Assembly: GCA_015179125.1 (NCBI GenBank)
Contig: WHVA01000212.1
Location: 1 to 64,000, forward strand
Source of the DNA: Gautieria morchelliformis
Lineage: Eukaryota; Basidiomycota; Agaricomycetes; Gomphales; Gomphaceae
DNA length: 64,000 bases
Reading direction: 5' to 3'
This document shows positions 50,346 through 58,653 of this stretch, piece after piece. Numbering within the stretch: position 1 is the stretch's first letter; the number at the start of each line of letters is the position of its first letter. The notes beneath the pieces were generated by a model. That model had not been told where the DNA came from, did not search any database, and saw only the letters and a program-made list of their open reading frames with translations. The position numbers and the translations under genes were made by a program.

Positions 50346-51021
50346 GGAGGGGAGGGTTTTGTTACAAGATGTGGTATGGATACCTAGTGTGCCTTGTCAG
50401 GTTTAACTCCTAAGAAGCCTATTTTGTATTACCCTGCCTTAATGACTACTATCCCCCTCATGTTCAGCCACCAATCTCTTATACCACTCGAACCCTTTCC
50501 TTTCGATCATTATCTCGGATTGTATGGCCCTCTTTGCCCTTCTTTGTTCTCCCTGCACAATATCACCTTATCTCAATCTCCGATATTGTATCCCATCAAA
50601 ATCTTGGGCTCATTGCCATCTTACATGCCTAATTAGTTTTGCCTGTTCTCTTTAAATGTCTTATTATATTCCTCTCCTTTTGCAGCTGCGTACCGTTCAC
50701 CTTTTCTCGTCTGCATCGCATCTACAAGGTATGTCCTTTTCACCCTCTCTGCTCTTCTTGGCTGACCATGTCTACTGCATTTTGTCCTGTGCCGTGCCGT
50801 TGCCTTGTTATTTTGATTTCTTTAGTGTTCCTCGTCCATATCTATGTCCCACATACCCTTTGTCTACATCTCCAGCAGTCTCTCCTCCATCTGTCCTTCC
50901 GCATTGGCACACTCCTCCTTACAAAATCCTCAGCTCCCTTCTCCTACGTCGCACTGCGTCCTTTTTGGAATCATTGACTTCACGTGTCGGTATTTCCCTG
51001 TCTCGTACCGATCTCCGAGTT
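50346..51021. other. no gene recognised; target region of gypsy B
   Basis: Pyrimidine-rich sequence with possible splice-like signals (tttttgcag near 50690) but no protein I can identify. Gypsy B inserted at gagtt (51017-51021); the same region continues at 58346. Confidence 0.4.
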
Positions 51022-51568
51022 TGTTACGATACGATCTGTCGTAAGGTTGACCAAGGTCGGGAGCGAAGCCCGAGGTAAGGTCGCGAGGCGAGGTTTGGAT
51101 GGGGAAGTCGGAGAGGGACTTGGCTTCAGCTTATGTGCTGCGCCGACCCTACGCACAAGTCCCAACTTCGGAGGCAAACGAATAAGAGGCGAGGTTTGGC
51201 TTAAGAGGCGAGGCTTAGAAACCAGCTAAGGATCGAAGGGATACGATAGTTGATTTTCAGACTGAGGAGTAGGAATGCATACAAGGGGGTTATATACGAG
51301 CGAGGGTACTAGTCAGGGGCGAACATATTGGTGGAGGTCAGGGCGAGGTCAGGAGGCCGAGGTCAGGGCGAGGTAATATACGAATGATGGAGCGGAATCA
51401 GTAACTAAGGGGATACGGGCATGGGATCAAGGTCGGATATGAGCTCAAGCTCGGGCTCGGGCTCGGGCGCGGATATGGATCATATGTACTCGGGCACGAA
51501 TATCACACGGCTCGGGCTCGGAAGAAGGTTTTACCGGTAAGTAACCGGCCAAAGGCCGGGTTCTTACA
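51022..51568 (-). repeat. gypsy B 3' LTR (547 bp)
   Basis: On the minus strand it starts tgtaagaacccggcc and ends atcgtaaca. The polypurine tract gaggggatac lies just inside (51569-51578, minus strand). Contains a short gggctc hexamer array near 51450. Confidence 0.95.
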
Positions 51569-51740
51569 GTATCCCCTCATTATGGCCGAGACCCTCGAGG
51601 CCGTAATGTGAACAAGGTTCGCCTATCCTCGAATCTAGATCACGGCCTGATGTTAAGTAGCCGGAAAGGCGAAGCTTAAATCGTAGCCGAGGTTAGATAA
51701 AAGGGTGGGTAGGAGGCAGCGAACCCAAGTGCCAACGAAT

Positions 51741-52864
51741 ATGGTGCGCCCGCAACCCCTCTTCAACTCAGCTGTCGACGAGAACAGCGCGAACAACGCG
51801 TTCGACCAGACATTGCTGTCTGAGGAGAACGGAGCCTCGGGCGAGGTTATGCCCGAGGATCGACCCGAGGTTGGCACATTGCCAATTGTTGAGACGGGGG
51901 CCATCGATATGCGGCAGCCGTGGCAGGAAGGGCCGAATGGCAAAAAGATGAGTCGTCGAGTAGTATCGTTTTTGCTGTTCACTGACTTGAGTAGTACAAG
52001 CGAATGTTATTCTCGTACCACCCGACCGACTTGTCCCTATACGGGTACAAGCTCGCCGACAGGGGACCTCGTGAGTGGCAACTCGCGACCAAGGCCGAGG
52101 CGAGGTGCGCGTGCTGCGAAGAGCGCGACTATACGTGCCTTCGGGCCGTTAGTCTCGACTTCGGCCTCGCCGACCAGGGTGCCTGCATGTGGTGCAGGAC
52201 ACGCTCCTTGGGCTGTAGCATAGCCCAAGGTCGCCGCAGCAAGGCGACCTCAGGAAAAGGTCAGGCGGGTGCCGGGGGCAAGAAGCGAGCGAGGAGCGAG
52301 GAGGCCGAGGATGGGCCGAGGCCGAGGAAAGAGGCCAAGGTTCAGGATGAGGTTGAGGATGACAACGACTCGAGCGACTGGGTCGAGCGGAATCTCGAGA
52401 CGAGGGTTGAGAGGATGGAAGCGAGGATGAGCGAGGAGAAGGGTAAGGGGACAGAGGGAGCGAGGCAGAGTGAGGAGAAGGAAACCGAGGTGGAGGAAAC
52501 CGAGGTGGAAGGTCAGAGGGCGAAGAAGGACAAGAAAGTGAAAAGGTCGGAGCGAAGTGCGGAGATGAGGGAGTTGATAGCGGCGGTGAGGGACGTGGGA
52601 CAGAAGGTTGGCGAGGTTGGGGAAAAGGTGTGTGAGTTGTTGGGGGAGTTTAGGGCGGCGAACGATAGGATGAATCGGGCGGATGTGGAGTTTATGAGGA
52701 TAAGGAGGAGGTGGAATTATCTGAAGCGGATGCAGGGGGCGAGGGACTTGGCAGCTTATGGAGGACATGGGGGTCTGGTGGAGCGAAGTAGCAGTAGTAA
52801 TGAGGAGGAGTCAGGCGAGGGTAGCGAGGAGAGCGAGGGAGAGGATATGAGGATGGTGGAGTAA
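51741..52864 (+). CDS. antisense accessory gene of gypsy B: Zn2Cys6-type cluster protein
   Basis: About 360 residues. Exon 1 is 51741-51959 and exon 2 is 52001-52864, joined in phase 0 across a 41-nt intron (GTAGTA...CTGAC...CAAG; an acceptor 6 nt earlier is also possible). The cluster reads C-x2-C-x6-C-x15/16-C-x2-C-x6-C (CACC...TC...CMWC...GC) at about residues 105-140, the spacing of fungal Zn2Cys6 binuclear clusters. A basic stretch, a long acidic Glu/Lys region, a predicted coiled coil (VGEVGEKVCELLGEFRA), an R-R-R-W-N motif and an acidic Ser/Glu tail follow. The gene starts 172 bp from the 3' LTR and ends 122 bp from the convergent pol stop. No lesion is seen although pol is broken. Unusually for a transcription factor, the cluster is internal. 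Confidence 0.65.
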
Positions 52865-52986
52865 CTACTAAGAGAATAATGGAATTTCTTGGATTTTATC
52901 GATTTTTTTGATTTTATTTTGTTGTTCGGTTGTAAGGGGATTTTGTTATCTAGCTAGTGGGTTCATGGGGTTTAAACAAGGAATGG

Positions 52987-55900
52987 TCATAGAGCAGTCA
53001 AAGGTCCTGGCTTGGCCGGGTAAGATTCGTGGAAGTCAGTGACCAGCTCCGAGGCATGATCGAGCTCGGAAGCGAGGATCCACGAGGTTTCTTCGTCGGT
53101 ACCTTCGTAACCAGTCCACCTAACAAGATAGAGTAACTTGCAGCTCTTGCATCTATTATCGATCTTCGAGTCGAGGATTTCGGAAACCTCGAACTCGGGT
53201 TCGCCGTCGATAACGATTGGGGGCGGAGGCGGCTGAACTCGGTTCGGGATGGTGTTGGGCGAGGCTGGTTCGAGCATAGATACGTGGAATACTGGATGGA
53301 CTGAATGCATGTGTTCTGGAAGTCGAAGGGTGAAGGAGTGAGTACCCGCTCGGGAAATGATCTCAAAAGGCCCCAAGAACTTCTCAGCGAGCTTTTTGGT
53401 AGGGCGAGTCGTTCTGAAGTAGTGTGCCTTCACAAAGGCGAGGGATCCTACTTGGAAATCAGGAGCGGGTTTGCGGCGAACATTGGCCGAGGCTTGGTAG
53501 GTCTTCTGAGCCTCGAGGATGGCGCGGCGAAGTTCTTGGTGAAGCTCGTCCAGGTCAACCATGAAGTCTCAAGCTTGTGCCGAGGCGAGATCATGCTTGG
53601 GGTGAACTGCGAGGTTCGGATGGTAACCCTTATTAGCAAAGAAGGGGGATATGCCGGTGGTTGCACTAGGCGCATTGTTGTAGGCGAACTCGGAACCCCT
53701 GTCCGAGGTGACGTGCGAGGGGACTCCATGCTTGGAAAAGACATGAAGGACGAAGAGATGAGCGAGCTCTTGCGAGGTTATCTTGTCGGTGGTTGGAATG
53801 AAGATAACCTGCTTAGTGAAGCGGTCAACAATCACTAGTATGGAGGTGAACTCGGATGAAGGGGGAAGCTGCTCAATGAAATCCATAGAGATGGAATTCC
53901 AAGGCTTCTTGGGAACGGGAAGTTGTTTGAGGAGACCATAGGGTTTGTGACGTTGTGGCTTGCTTCGCATACAAGTGGTGCACGTCTTGTAATACTCCTT
54001 GACAAAGGATCTAATCCCTGGCCAAGTGTAGTCTCGTCGGATCAGCTCCAAGGTCTTGTTGGCCCCGAAGTGTCCTGAGAGAATGTGGTCGTGCTTGTAT
54101 TGCAGGATGCGAAGTCGAAGGTCTTGGGCCGCTGGAACATAGGTTCGGTTGTCAAGCTTGAGAAAACCCTCAGGGTCTGTGGTCCACCTCGGGTCATTAA
54201 CCAAGCCGAGGTGTGACTTGGCTATGGGGTCCGAGGGGAGGTTTGCTAGTATGTCAGCTCGGATCTGCTCGGTATCAAGCAGTGAAGCGGCTCGGAGTAC
54301 GACGGGAGCGAGGTTAGTAGCTCTAAGGGACAATGCCAGCTGGTGTTGGGTAAACACTGGCCGTAGGTTCTGTGGGTTTATGGTGGCAGAGTCGCTATTC
54401 CCCTCTTTAAGGTAGACGTCCCTTCGTCTAGTGAGTGAGTCAGGCTTCGTTCCGAGGCGACCAGGTCGGAAACGTATGGCGAGGTTGAATTGGGACAGGT
54501 ATTCTGACCACCGAGCTTGTTGACGGGTCAAGAGCTTCGTTGTTGAAAGGTATTCGAGGTTCTTGTGGTTGGTGATAACGTCGACAGGGTCGCCAGAGCC
54601 CTCTAGGTAGTGTCGCCAGCGTTGAAAAGCTTCAAAAATGGCAAGGAGCTCCTTGTCGTGAACATCGTAGTTGAGCTCGGTAGAGGTGAATGTGCGGGAG
54701 TGGAAAGCGACGTGATGAAGTTCACCTTCCGAGGTTCGCAGTGATAAGATTGCCGCTAAGGCATAATCTGAAGCATCAGTCTCTACGATTAGTGGAAGGT
54801 CAGGAATCCAGTGGGTAAGGATAGGAGCAGGTAGTGAACGCCTTCTTCAACAAGTTGAAGGCCTGCCGACAATCCTCGGAAAAGTTCCAAGGGGTGCCCT
54901 TGCAGGTGAGTCAGGTGAGAGGAATGGTGATGTCGGAGTAGTTGTGAATGAAACGTCGGTAGAAGTTGGCGAAACCGAGGAAGGACTGGATGTCGCGAAC
55001 TTTGCGAGGTTCAGGCCAGTCTTGAATGACCTTTACCTTGTCGTCCGCCATAGTGAGGCCCTCGGGAGAGAGTATGTAGCCGAGGAATTCAACTGAGTCG
55101 CAATGAAACTCGCATTTGTCTTCTTTGGTGAAGAGGTTGTTGAGTCATAGTCGTCGCAAGACTTCCTTGACATGTTCAACATGTTTGGAGGGGTCACTGG
55201 AGTAGATTAGAATGTCATCCAAGTATACCACCACACAAACGTCCAAAAGGTCGGCGAAAATCTCGTTCATGAATCTCTGGAAAGCAGCAGGGCCGTTAGT
55301 GAGACCAAATGGCATAACCAACCATTCAAAAGACCCATAGCGAGTCCTGAAGGCGGTTTTCCATTCGTCACCCTCGGCCACCCGTACGAGGTGGTAAGCG
55401 TGATGAAGGTCAACCTTCGTATAGATGTGAGCATTCTTTGGAGCATCAAGTAAGTCAGCAATCAATGGCAATGGATACCGATCCTTTTTCGAGATTTTGT
55501 TAAACCTCGGAAGTCGACGCATAACCGAAGTGAGCCATCTTTTTTGCGAACAAACAATACCAGTGCACCATGAGGCGAGTGTGAAGGTCGGATGAAACCG
55601 ATGTTCAAGTGCTCGTCAATGAACTCGCGAAGTGCTTTGAGTTCGGAAGCCGAGAGGGAGTAGATTGGACCGATAGGTGGCGAGGTCCCTTCTTCGAGGT
55701 TGATTTTGATATCGTGGGGTCGGTGGGGAGCTAGAGTGTCAGCGCGTGCTTTACTGAACACATCTGCAAATTCGTGATATACTTCGGGAACATGTTTCTT
55801 AACATTCTCAGAAAGTTCGGAGGAACTTTCTCCCGATGTTGCCCCTCTGGCGAGGAGCCCAGGCGAAGCCAGATCGAGCTGAAACACTTCGGACCCTTCC

Positions 55901-56463
55901 AATCTAGACGCGTGCATGAAAGCGGGTGCATTGATTAGGGAAACGAGCGGTGCTTGCAACTTCGGAGGCGAGGTCGGAGGCGGGGGCGAAGATGCCGTAG
56001 GCGAGGTCGAAGTCGTAGCCGAAGCTGAGCGGGCTGACATCACCGTGGTCGCTGGAGTCATAGTTAGGTCGATGGTCTTGAAAGTAATACTGCCCAATAC
56101 CCAGTCAATCGACGGATTGTAGCGGGTGAGCCAGTTGTGGCCAAGTACCATCGAGCAACTTGAGTCGAGCGAGGTTACGTAGATGGTAACCCATTGTTGT
56201 TCGCCAGTCGGAAAGCAAATGCAGAGGTCTAGAGCTTGGGTAATGGTAGTGTTAGTACTACCGTCAAATAGTTTCAGAGGTATAGGGGAGACAGGATAAG
56301 CAGGCATAGAGTACTTCTGGACAAATCTGGATTCAATAAAACAATCTGAGGACCCGCAGTCAACTAATGCAACAAAAGCGACGTTGGGGAGCGAAGGCGA
56401 GGTTAAATCTACATTAAGGGAATCTTTGGACAATGAATGAGAAGCGGCACTGAGTCTGAGCAC
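52987..56463 (-). pseudogene. gypsy B pol, inactivated
   Basis: The protease reads D-C-G-S-S instead of DSGAS (about 56360). RT spans 55700-55150 with LDDILIY (about 55215); a one-base deletion near 55490 breaks it, and TGA at 55145-55147 stands at a family arginine. RNase H (ETDASDYAL...) is at about 54800-54550, with frame changes upstream. The integrase finger and first catalytic residues are present, but SDRGSEF jumps directly to AYNNAPS: about 70 residues containing the catalytic Glu and the GYHPxGDGQTER block are deleted in frame. TGA 53569-53571 follows, then the chromodomain-like end (FEVSEILDS...YLVRWTGYEG) to 52987. Confidence 0.9.
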
Positions 56464-56513
56464 ACGGGTGAGGTTACCGCAATCCTCGGATCGTGTGGTT
56501 CCGAGGTTGCTAC

Positions 56514-57743
56514 CTATTTTTTCACCTCCGTAATGGAGGCCGAAGTCCCCTCGTTAGGGGTCTTTGCTGCCCGACCTTTAGAACCGCTACCGCTGGTAGA
56601 CTTGTTCTTCGGGCAGTCCTTGACGATGTGGCCTTTGGTGCTGCAAAGCAGACAAAGGCCATGGTCGACCCGACGTTGGCGCTCCTCGGGAAGTAGTTTG
56701 CCATCCTTCCCGAGTTTGCTTGAAATGTCGGACTGACCCTTGTTGTTCGAAGAGTTGTTGTGGGAACCCTTGCCGTTGTTGTTAGTCTTGTTGTGGTTCC
56801 TATTGTTATTGGAACCGCTGGACGACTGGTTGTTGTTAGTGGCATTGCTGCTGGACTGATTAGCAGTGCGTGCCGGCTGGGAGCTACGACCATTGATCAT
56901 GGCGTCATATTCCTTACGCTCCCAGTAACGGCTGTCGCATTCCAGCGCGAAGTTCCTAAGCTCGGCGAGGCTGCAGAATCGAGGGAAGTGAAGCAAGTCG
57001 TCCTTGATTCTTTTGGCCAAGCCCTTGTAGGCGAAGTGTCGGAGGGCCGCATCGTTCCACTGAGTCCGAGTCGAAGCTTGGGCGAAATCGATAAAGAATC
57101 GCGCGGCCTTGTGGTGCTCTTTCATAACGATTTTCTCGAGGTCAATCTCGGCTTGGGCAGCGTTGTCGTATGGCCCGAAGTTGAGCTCGAGCTCGGCCTT
57201 GAAGCTGTCCCAGTCCTCGAGCCAATCTGGCTCGGGTTGGACTTCGCCGAGGATCGCCGGCTCAAAATACTGTAGAGCTGAGCCGGACAGGTAAGAAATA
57301 GCATACTGTACCTTCGAGGCCCCAGTCTTGAAAGCTGTGGGGCGATCTCGGAAGTTGAGTACGCATTGAAGGAAGAAGGTGCAAAGCTTGGCTTGGTCAG
57401 TACCGTCATAACTATCCGGTTCCTTGACCTTGGCTCGTGCTTCGGACTCGCGAGGTTTCACGAGTTTGATGAACACTCGACGCATAAGCTCATTGTCTTC
57501 GAGGTCACCGAGGTCCTCGGGTGGTAGGTTGGGGAGGTCCTGATCGTTGTCAGAACTTCCCGAGCCATCACCTGGATCACCTGAAGGATCACCGGGGTTA
57601 GCCCTACCTTTGCCTTTGTTACTAGGCTCGGCGGGGTCTGCGAGGGGTATCCCCGGGGACGGTGGAGAGTCGTCGGGGGCTTCCGAGAAACGTCGTTGTT
57701 CTGATATACCCCGAAGGGTGCGAGAACGAGTCATCATGGACAT
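56514..57743 (-). CDS. gypsy B gag, intact
   Basis: 409 residues. The N-terminus is Pro/Gly/Ser-rich, then a capsid domain (DSYDGTDQAKLCTFF...), an Asn-rich low-complexity linker (about residues 292-330) and a zinc knuckle C-x2-C-x4-H-x4-C (CLLCSTKGHIVKDC, about residues 365-378). No stop or frameshift. It ends 50 bp before pol in another frame, so pol would need frameshifting or a spliced/bypass mechanism in an active relative. Confidence 0.9.
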   Translation of the reverse strand: MSMMTRSRTLRGISEQRRFSEAPDDSPPSPGIPLADPAEPSNKGKGRANPGDPSGDPGDGSGSSDNDQDLPNLPPEDLGDLEDNELMRRVFIKLVKPRESEARAKVKEPDSYDGTDQAKLCTFFLQCVLNFRDRPTAFKTGASKVQYAISYLSGSALQYFEPAILGEVQPEPDWLEDWDSFKAELELNFGPYDNAAQAEIDLEKIVMKEHHKAARFFIDFAQASTRTQWNDAALRHFAYKGLAKRIKDDLLHFPRFCSLAELRNFALECDSRYWERKEYDAMINGRSSQPARTANQSSSNATNNNQSSSGSNNNRNHNKTNNNGKGSHNNSSNNKGQSDISSKLGKDGKLLPEERQRRVDHGLCLLCSTKGHIVKDCPKNKSTSGSGSKGRAAKTPNEGTSASITEVKK

Positions 57744-57786
57744 AGTGAAGAAAGGGATACGTAGGGTGTAAGCAGTCTGAAAATAC

Positions 57787-58340
57787 TGTTACGATACGAT
57801 CCGTCGTAAGGTTGACCGAGGTCGGGAGCGAAGCCTGAGGTAAGGTCCGAGGTCGCGAGGCGAGGTTTGGATGGGGAAGTCGGAGAGGGACTTGGCTTCA
57901 GCTTATGTGCTGCGCCGACCCTACGCACAAGTCCCAACTTTGGAGGCAAACGAATAAGAGGCGAGGTTTGGCTTAAGAGGCGAGGCTTAGAAACTAGCTA
58001 AGGATCGAAGGGATACGATAGTTGATTTTCAGACTGAGGAGTAGGAATGCATACAAGGGGGTTATATACGAGCGAGGGTACTAGTCAGGGGCGAACATAT
58101 TGGTGGAGGTCAGGGCGAGGTCAGGAGGCCGAGGTCAGGGCGAGGTAATATACGAATGATGGAGCGGAATCAGTAACTAAGGGGATACGGGCATGGGATC
58201 AAGGTCGGATATGAACTCAAGCTCGGGCTCGGGCTCGGGCGCGGATATGGATCATATGTACTCGGGCACGAATATCACACGGCTCGGGCTCGGAAGAAGG
58301 TTTTACCAGTAAGTAACCGGCCAAAGGCCGGGTTCTTACA
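57787..58340 (-). repeat. gypsy B 5' LTR (554 bp)
   Basis: Same ends as the left LTR. Seven bases longer through a ccgaggt repeat near 57850. Confidence 0.95.
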
Positions 58341-58653
58341 GAGTTAAGGTAAACATTGTTGAATTAATAATATCCACCTTTCACAATGATTGCATCTTCT
58401 TTGATACTGCTTCTCTCAATTCCCTTAAGCAGTGTTGTGTCTTGTACCATTCCACATCCCTCCTTTCCTCGTCGGTGTGTGATACATCATGTCATTTTCG
58501 GTTGGTTTTAGGATGTGTGCTTGCTAAGTATGGAGGTGACTCTCTTTCAATGGTACTGCACATAACATGTAACAAATATAACTGTATATAAATGCAAATC
58601 ATCACTTATGAAAGAATACTTTGTCTGAAACTGTAATGTCAACAACACAATCC

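Follow-up and report, generated by a model that had tools for sequence, protein, structure and literature searches.

A conserved, intron-bearing antisense gene with a zinc-cluster-like cysteine domain in a chromovirus-type Ty3/gypsy family of Gautieria morchelliformis

The window, which is the whole stretch of 64,000 nucleotides analyzed here (positions 1 to 64,000 of contig WHVA01000212.1 of Gautieria morchelliformis), contains a Ty3/gypsy element on its minus strand (51022-58340). The element is bounded by two LTRs of 547 and 554 bp, the 3' LTR at 51022-51568 and the 5' LTR at 57787-58340 (both minus strand), which form a direct repeat with seven mismatches and eight gap columns in an alignment where the 3' LTR was extended to 51569, one base too long. 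A 5-bp target duplication GAGTT, read from the sequence, flanks the element at 51017-51021 and 58341-58345. The pol end (52987-53568, minus strand) encodes an SH3_Tf2-1 domain (PF24626, 64.9 bits) and a chromodomain (PF00385, 31.7 bits), with the stop codon at 52987-52989. The remainder of pol (53569-56553, minus strand) is interrupted, leaving the pol of the window copy broken across several frames: a frame with Pfam matches to RNase H, H2C2 and integrase, a reverse transcriptase frame assigned by eye via the motif YLDDILIY, and a protease-like frame under the Pfam cut-off. With LTRs, RNase H, integrase and chromodomain all present, the window element is a chromovirus-type Ty3/gypsy element. 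A first look at the whole genome (122 Mb) yielded 3407 SH3_Tf2-1 candidates, 150 of which were scored, and the chromovirus load of this genome is apparently very heavy.

On the plus strand, the interval from the pol stop to the 3' LTR carries an ORF in the position and orientation that the sequence-only reading of this DNA had described. Following the boundaries found across the family, the antisense gene consists of exon 1 (51741-51947, plus strand), which starts with ATG in 69/70 copies, a phase-0 intron (51948-51994, plus strand) of 46-48 nt, and exon 2 (51995-52864, plus strand), which encodes 289 residues followed by a stop codon; the predicted product is ~360 residues long. A survey of 70 copies aligned over 2 kb revealed that the intron measures 46 nt in 59 copies, 47 nt in seven and 48 nt in three, in addition to a 38-nt deleted form in one. 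Its donor is GTGAGT in 66/70 copies and GTAAGT in 2/70 (GTRAGT in 68/70), the acceptor is TAG or CAG (YAG) in 69/70, and YTGAY is present within the final 22 nt in all 70. Since introns of 46 and 47 nt are unreadable in frame and both exon frames are kept in most copies, the sequence pattern argues for splicing. The earlier proposal that the element retains an intron-carrying gene agrees with this conserved intron, whose lengths are not all readable in frame. Once the exons are joined at the family sites, internal stops are absent in 53/70 copies; the length of exon 1 is not a multiple of three in 5/70, and exon 2 is open at 270-330 residues in 66 of the 78 copies fetched.

The window copy itself has no canonical donor at the family position, and its earlier description as undamaged does not hold. 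Four in-frame alternative GT-AG pairs remain in this copy, one of which is the 41-nt intron (51960-52000) proposed earlier. That intron is compatible with the frame but was rejected as the family intron, because 69/70 copies have an intron of 46-48 nt at 51948-51994.

The protein can be divided into three parts. A six-cysteine domain (52106-52216, plus strand) has the spacing C-x2-C-x6-C-x15-C-x2-C-x6-C, in which both C-x2-C-x6-C halves seen by the sequence-only reading are present. Of the 66 open copies, 66, 66, 66, 66, 65 and 64 retain the first to the sixth cysteine, respectively, and 63 have the exact spacing. An extra cysteine at residue 40 of exon 2 occurs in the window copy only, among the 66. 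The domain is followed by a charged linker (52226-52549, plus strand), recognized by its composition and by its dN/dS, with basic clusters that are possible candidates for nuclear signals. The C-terminal part (52550-52762, plus strand) is predicted to be a long helix with the heptad spacing of a coiled coil, in line with the earlier assignment. In the single-sequence AlphaFold model, residues 158-256 are helical, with a pLDDT of 94-96 at residues 191-240, whereas residues 1-108 have a pLDDT below 50 and the model is uninformative on the cysteine part. Moreover, 13 of the 19 residues of the type L, I, V, M or F within residues 186-256 fall at positions i mod 7 = 2 or 5.

Database searches with this protein returned few relatives. 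Structural similarity search of the PDB by sequence gave two chance-level matches and no relative of solved structure, and the search by fold, made with a model whose first 108 residues lie below pLDDT 50, gave no relative. A scan of NCBIfam produced a single match, far under its cut-off, and neither exon gave a Pfam match to a bZIP family. Against ~5.8 billion proteins, in a search that detects only relatives sharing short exact words, we obtained a 257-aa protein (P0003) that aligns with 79% of the query at 35% identity (E 1.3e-26) and has the exact cysteine spacing of the family. P0003 comes from a contig of 938 bases that bears the source label lgn and is probably of metagenomic origin, and the match suggests that the gene family extends beyond the genome of Gautieria morchelliformis. 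The first half of its cysteine domain, CAACRKRGDSC, is more classical. Apart from P0003, the sole relative reported is a stretch of 60 residues within a protein of Gautieria morchelliformis. With the same kind of short-exact-word search, the cysteine part alone found no relatives, and no protein of Botrytis was among the results of the three protein searches.

Within the same genome, exon 2 was matched at at least 135 places. Among the matches listed, an antisense copy lies no more than 1.5 kb downstream of 91 of the 150 listed pol ends, at a distance of 109-139 nt in 76 of the 91 pairs, and a further list adds 17 pol ends, which brings the antisense partners to at least 108/150. By contrast, a same-strand copy within 2.5 kb was found at 0 of 150 pol ends, among the matches listed. 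This single arrangement bears out the view that the gene is carried by the element. The other 42/150 pol ends have no partner among the matches listed; these may be copies that decayed, lost the gene or never had one.

Three aberrant copies were inspected individually. One of them (L079, C182:112900-113830) lies beside an open 1249-aa pol frame and has lost the cysteine domain in frame, its deletion junction sitting, by eye, in short GGCCGAGG repeats. Another (L081, C352:109300-109800) lies beside a 1063-aa open pol frame, its loss of the domain being out of frame, and the third (L080) is frameshifted, with the domain still present. A class of copies without the zinc cluster, considered on account of L079, was rejected: as one further near-full match to the L079 form is listed (C1103, query 2-206, open frame 281), L080 keeps the domain and the loss in L081 is out of frame, all three are read as decay. 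L079 and L081 are possible natural forms with the coil and without the cluster.

To describe selection on the gene, we used 35 representatives with less than 97% identity over the gene, drawn from the 70 copies and excluding eight more divergent ones (L071-L078). Pooled dN/dS was 0.25 for exon 1, 0.19 for exon 2 and 0.21 for the pol end, a comparison in which the copies are the best scorers against the window protein, which may depress dN, and the pol end was not so selected. These values, well away from 1, indicate purifying selection among the genome copies, the check that the sequence-only reading had proposed. Within exon 2, the pooled value is 0.14 for the cysteine part, 0.31 for the linker (52226-52600), 0.10 for the coil (52580-52783) and 0.13 for the tail. 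The median dN/dS is 0.11 for the pol end versus 0.19 for exon 2. A tree of 67 copies (L032, L055 and L070 left out) gave omega values on internal and terminal branches of 0.15 and 0.30 for exon 2, 0.18 and 0.39 for exon 1, and 0.07 and 0.30 for pol, compared to 1.92 and 1.09 for a +1-frame control; lower omega on internal branches is the pattern expected of selection on elements that are still jumping. Hence pol is somewhat the stricter by median dN/dS and on internal branches, and exon 2 is near pol when pooled.

The frame in which exon 2 is read stands out from the others. Four of its five wrong frames have dN/dS of 1.29, 1.20, 1.38 and 1.58, as opposed to 0.19 for the correct one, a comparison on which the chance ORF was rejected. 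The fifth wrong frame, whose codon phase is mirrored, has 0.33, an artefact likewise seen in the mirrored frame of pol (0.29). Stops occur in every minus-strand frame of exon 2 in 70/70 copies, and the true frame is stop-free in 60/70. Unique indels are multiples of three in 13/18 cases in exon 2, compared to 3/9 in exon 1, 1/10 in the 5' spacer and 8/46 in the 3' spacer; the exon-1 indels argue against a strict frame in that exon.

Upstream of the ATG lies a leader on the polypurine tract side (51569-51740, plus strand), a candidate antisense promoter or 5' UTR, with a TATA-like GATAAAAG at 51696-51703, ~40 nt upstream of the ATG. Over 34 copies, the column conservation of the leader (51590-51740) is 0.966, compared to 0.960, 0.969 and 0.899 for the first, second and third codon positions of exon 2, 0.852 for the third positions of exon 1, 0.805 for the inner intron and 0.922 for the 3' spacer. 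The U3 end of the LTR, near the polypurine tract, contains the palindrome CCGGCCAAAGGCCGG (51545-51559), which is perfect apart from its AAA center and is a candidate binding site. Over 31 aligned LTRs, its mean column conservation is 0.981, and that of the LTR as a whole is 0.942. As a few other 20-nt LTR blocks are equally or more conserved (0.984-0.990), the palindrome is not a unique signal, and its conservation could be explained by closeness to the LTR terminus, the site of integrase action.

The sequence-only reading had called the cysteine domain a Zn2Cys6 cluster. Against PF00172, whose gathering cut-off is 21 bits, 13 of 21 alignment members match weakly, the best at E 0.016 and 15.7 bits; 0/21 reach the cut-off, and the window copy has no match. 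The PROSITE-style Zn2Cys6 pattern has a loop of 5-12 residues and a basic first half, and it is matched by 0/66 open copies, nor is it matched by P0003. In the window family the loop has 15 residues, and EERDYT stands where the first half of Zn2Cys6 is usually basic.

When the whole genome was scanned with PF00172, 79 matches were obtained at E ≤1, one of which led to a second repeated ORF with the spacing C-x2-C-x6-C-x7-C-x2-C-x6-C. Its representative (L082) scores 19.7 bits alone, and its place scores 21.6 bits in the genome scan. ORFs of this second family were found at at least 40 places, and six of the 40 places listed are among the 79 matches, four over the cut-off (21.0-22.2 bits) and two under it. 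At G000:C149:407340-408530, this antisense ORF with its 7-residue loop and a chromodomain pol end (L083) lie on opposite strands, the pol end ~0.5 kb beyond the ORF and 79% identical over 58 residues to that of the window. Such ORFs and pol ends are paired in one relative orientation at 25/40 listed pol ends, 21 of the 25 pairs being 478-508 nt apart and none reversed, among the matches listed. Compared by eye, the second-family places are absent from the 150 scored PF24626 (SH3_Tf2-1) rows of the 3407 candidates. Thus this genome contains two or more chromovirus families with an antisense ORF of the zinc-cluster type in the same place beside pol.

Profile comparison by hhalign of the window-family domain against L082 gave an E of 1.3e-4 and a probability of 54, with the six cysteines aligned and the loop shortened. 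The window family resembles PF00172 in its C-x2-C-x6-C halves and in this profile match through the second family, but differs in its 15-residue loop, acidic first half, score below the cut-off and residence in a retroelement. As the family lies below the PF00172 cut-off and yet matches a second-family ORF of Zn_clus grade, we consider kinship likely, not membership; of the earlier Zn2Cys6 label, a likely relationship stands and the assignment to the family (best 15.7 bits) does not. Its sequence makes the cluster a probable relative of Zn2Cys6 that has diverged. The PF00172 scan also returned other groups of Zn_clus-like ORFs with similar lengths (C1026:83532, C495:6567, C526:92719 and C148:212295), as well as 46-aa Zn_clus-like frames (C609, C373, C272, C519, C143 and C1048). 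These further groups may be more element-borne families.

Antisense genes of Ty3/gypsy elements have precedents. The available parts of two sources describe the plant aORF-3R, including Grande gene23, RIRE2 and the Retand TRP28 ORFs; gene23 encodes a nuclear protein and has its own promoter, DNA binding is predicted for the TRP28 ORFs, and regulatory roles were suggested by the authors for the plant antisense ORFs (PMC7264820, PMC11963269). The function of gypsy antisense genes is not known, according to the review in its accessible text (PMC7264820). The word zinc is absent from the main text of PMC11963269, and no zinc cluster is reported there for the plant ORFs. Like the plant aORF-3R, the present gene is antisense, occupies the slot between pol and the 3' LTR and is retained in most copies; it differs from them in its fungal chromodomain element, its intron, its six cysteines and its coiled coil.

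A fungal antisense gene, brtn, was reportedly described originally by Zhao et al. 2011. It is the extra gene of Boty-like gypsy elements of Botrytis cinerea, as given in the consulted portions of the citing papers (PMC7264820, PMC8365987, PMC4227169, PMC5987419), and resembles the present gene as an antisense additional gene of a fungal chromodomain gypsy element. Its host is an ascomycete, and those portions of the citing papers report no zinc cluster for it. The sequence-only reading knew of no described fungal counterpart with a zinc cluster; this holds in part, since brtn of Botrytis is a described antisense gypsy gene of a fungus for which the citing text gives no zinc cluster. In addition, a figure legend of Novikova et al. 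2010, on gypsy elements from fungi and spikemoss, marks an extra ORF whose function is not known, and gives neither its orientation nor a zinc cluster in the part seen (PMC2864245). Our literature search, which covered titles and the starts of abstracts, with most subscription papers outside its scope, found no zinc-cluster gene lying antisense in a fungal gypsy element. Antisense gypsy genes are already known from plants and as brtn, and a zinc cluster in one of them is new within the literature searched.

A further parallel comes from HBZ of HTLV-1, a regulator of the dimerizing type. It is an antisense gene served from the 3' LTR, according to the part of the source consulted (PMC3185765). 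HBZ is a bZIP protein, whereas the gene in the window has a Cys6 cluster and its antisense transcription is putative; the likeness is one of placement, and no homology is claimed.

Altogether, the antisense gene is conserved, element-linked, intron-bearing and coding, and is an accessory of a chromovirus-type Ty3/gypsy family with many copies. Selection on it is almost as strict as on the replication enzyme, and its probable role is therefore that of a regulator belonging to the element itself. The explanation that we consider best, with belief and doubt in about equal parts, is that the spliced antisense gene encodes a dimeric, nuclear DNA-binding regulator of the element. We propose that either the conserved leader or the 3' LTR would drive transcription on the plus strand, and that the transcript would be spliced. 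The product would fold into a two-zinc cluster of the Zn2Cys6 type, dimerize through the C-terminal coiled coil and then enter the nucleus. There it might bind to element DNA, such as the CGG/CCG palindrome at the U3 end, and thereby tune sense transcription, promoter choice or targeting. By analogy, it would act like HTLV HBZ or Grande gene23, but with a DNA-binding domain of fungal type. Against this explanation stand an hhalign probability of only 54, PF00172 scores below the cut-off, a PROSITE-style pattern that fits 0/66 copies, EERDYT in place of the usual basic residues, the greater strictness of pol by median dN/dS and on internal branches, PDB searches that gave no relative of solved structure, the loss of the cysteines in L079, the 42/150 unpaired pol ends, the frame-breaking indels of exon 1, and a palindrome that is one among several conserved LTR blocks.

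The evidence of purifying selection would also fit a nucleic-acid-binding accessory protein selected by the element for a post-transcriptional task, such as RNA packaging, bringing the pre-integration complex into the nucleus, directing where integration occurs or counteracting silencing by the host. A six-cysteine domain with a charged linker suits RNA as well as DNA, and roles in the pre-integration complex or as accessories have been proposed for plant antisense ORFs in the available text of the review (PMC7264820). We regard this alternative as a less probable one that still deserves weight, since the likely kin of the domain, Zn2Cys6, is a DNA-binding type and the conserved leader adjoining the gene better matches regulation. 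Zn2Cys6 proteins are typical host regulators in fungi, and with 79 PF00172 matches in the genome the gene might instead be a captured host transcription-factor gene, either hitch-hiking or still serving the host. This origin, the carried host factor of the earlier reading, appears improbable: wherever a pol end is listed nearby (at least 108/150) the gene occupies one antisense slot, with no same-strand case listed, and its selection is relaxed on terminal branches as in pol. Moreover, 0/79 PF00172 matches lie within 2 kb of the 154 listed places of the window family, so no Pfam-recognized parent gene is seen in that family, and no single-copy host relative was seen among the matches listed in the source genome.

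The remaining two alternatives do without a functional protein. Antisense transcripts of retroelements can feed silencing, as the review states in its accessible part (PMC7264820), and the RNA rather than the protein might matter here, through dsRNA or interference with sense transcription; we give this little credence, as constraint specific to codon position and the conservation of the cysteines require a protein. Least credible of all is an open frame that only reflects constraint or composition on the opposite strand. The low dN/dS of the mirrored-phase minus-strand frame (0.33) speaks for it, but pol shows the like artefact and the true frame of exon 2 is lower still, and constraint from the minus strand is contradicted by the stops in all its frames.

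In its wider form, the favored explanation of an element-encoded regulator would mean that two or more chromovirus families of this genome each encode, in a spliced antisense gene, a Zn2Cys6-type transcription factor of their own, an independent counterpart of HBZ, the element encoding both the LTR and its reader; our confidence in this falls slightly short of even. If true, it would provide a case of a retroelement with its own regulator. The open question of what gypsy antisense genes do is directly testable here, because the family combines a likely DNA-binding module, a coil, a conserved intron and more than 100 listed copies with a nearby conserved palindrome as candidate target. The finding also suggests that some Zn2Cys6-like ORFs of mushroom genomes are retroelement genes.
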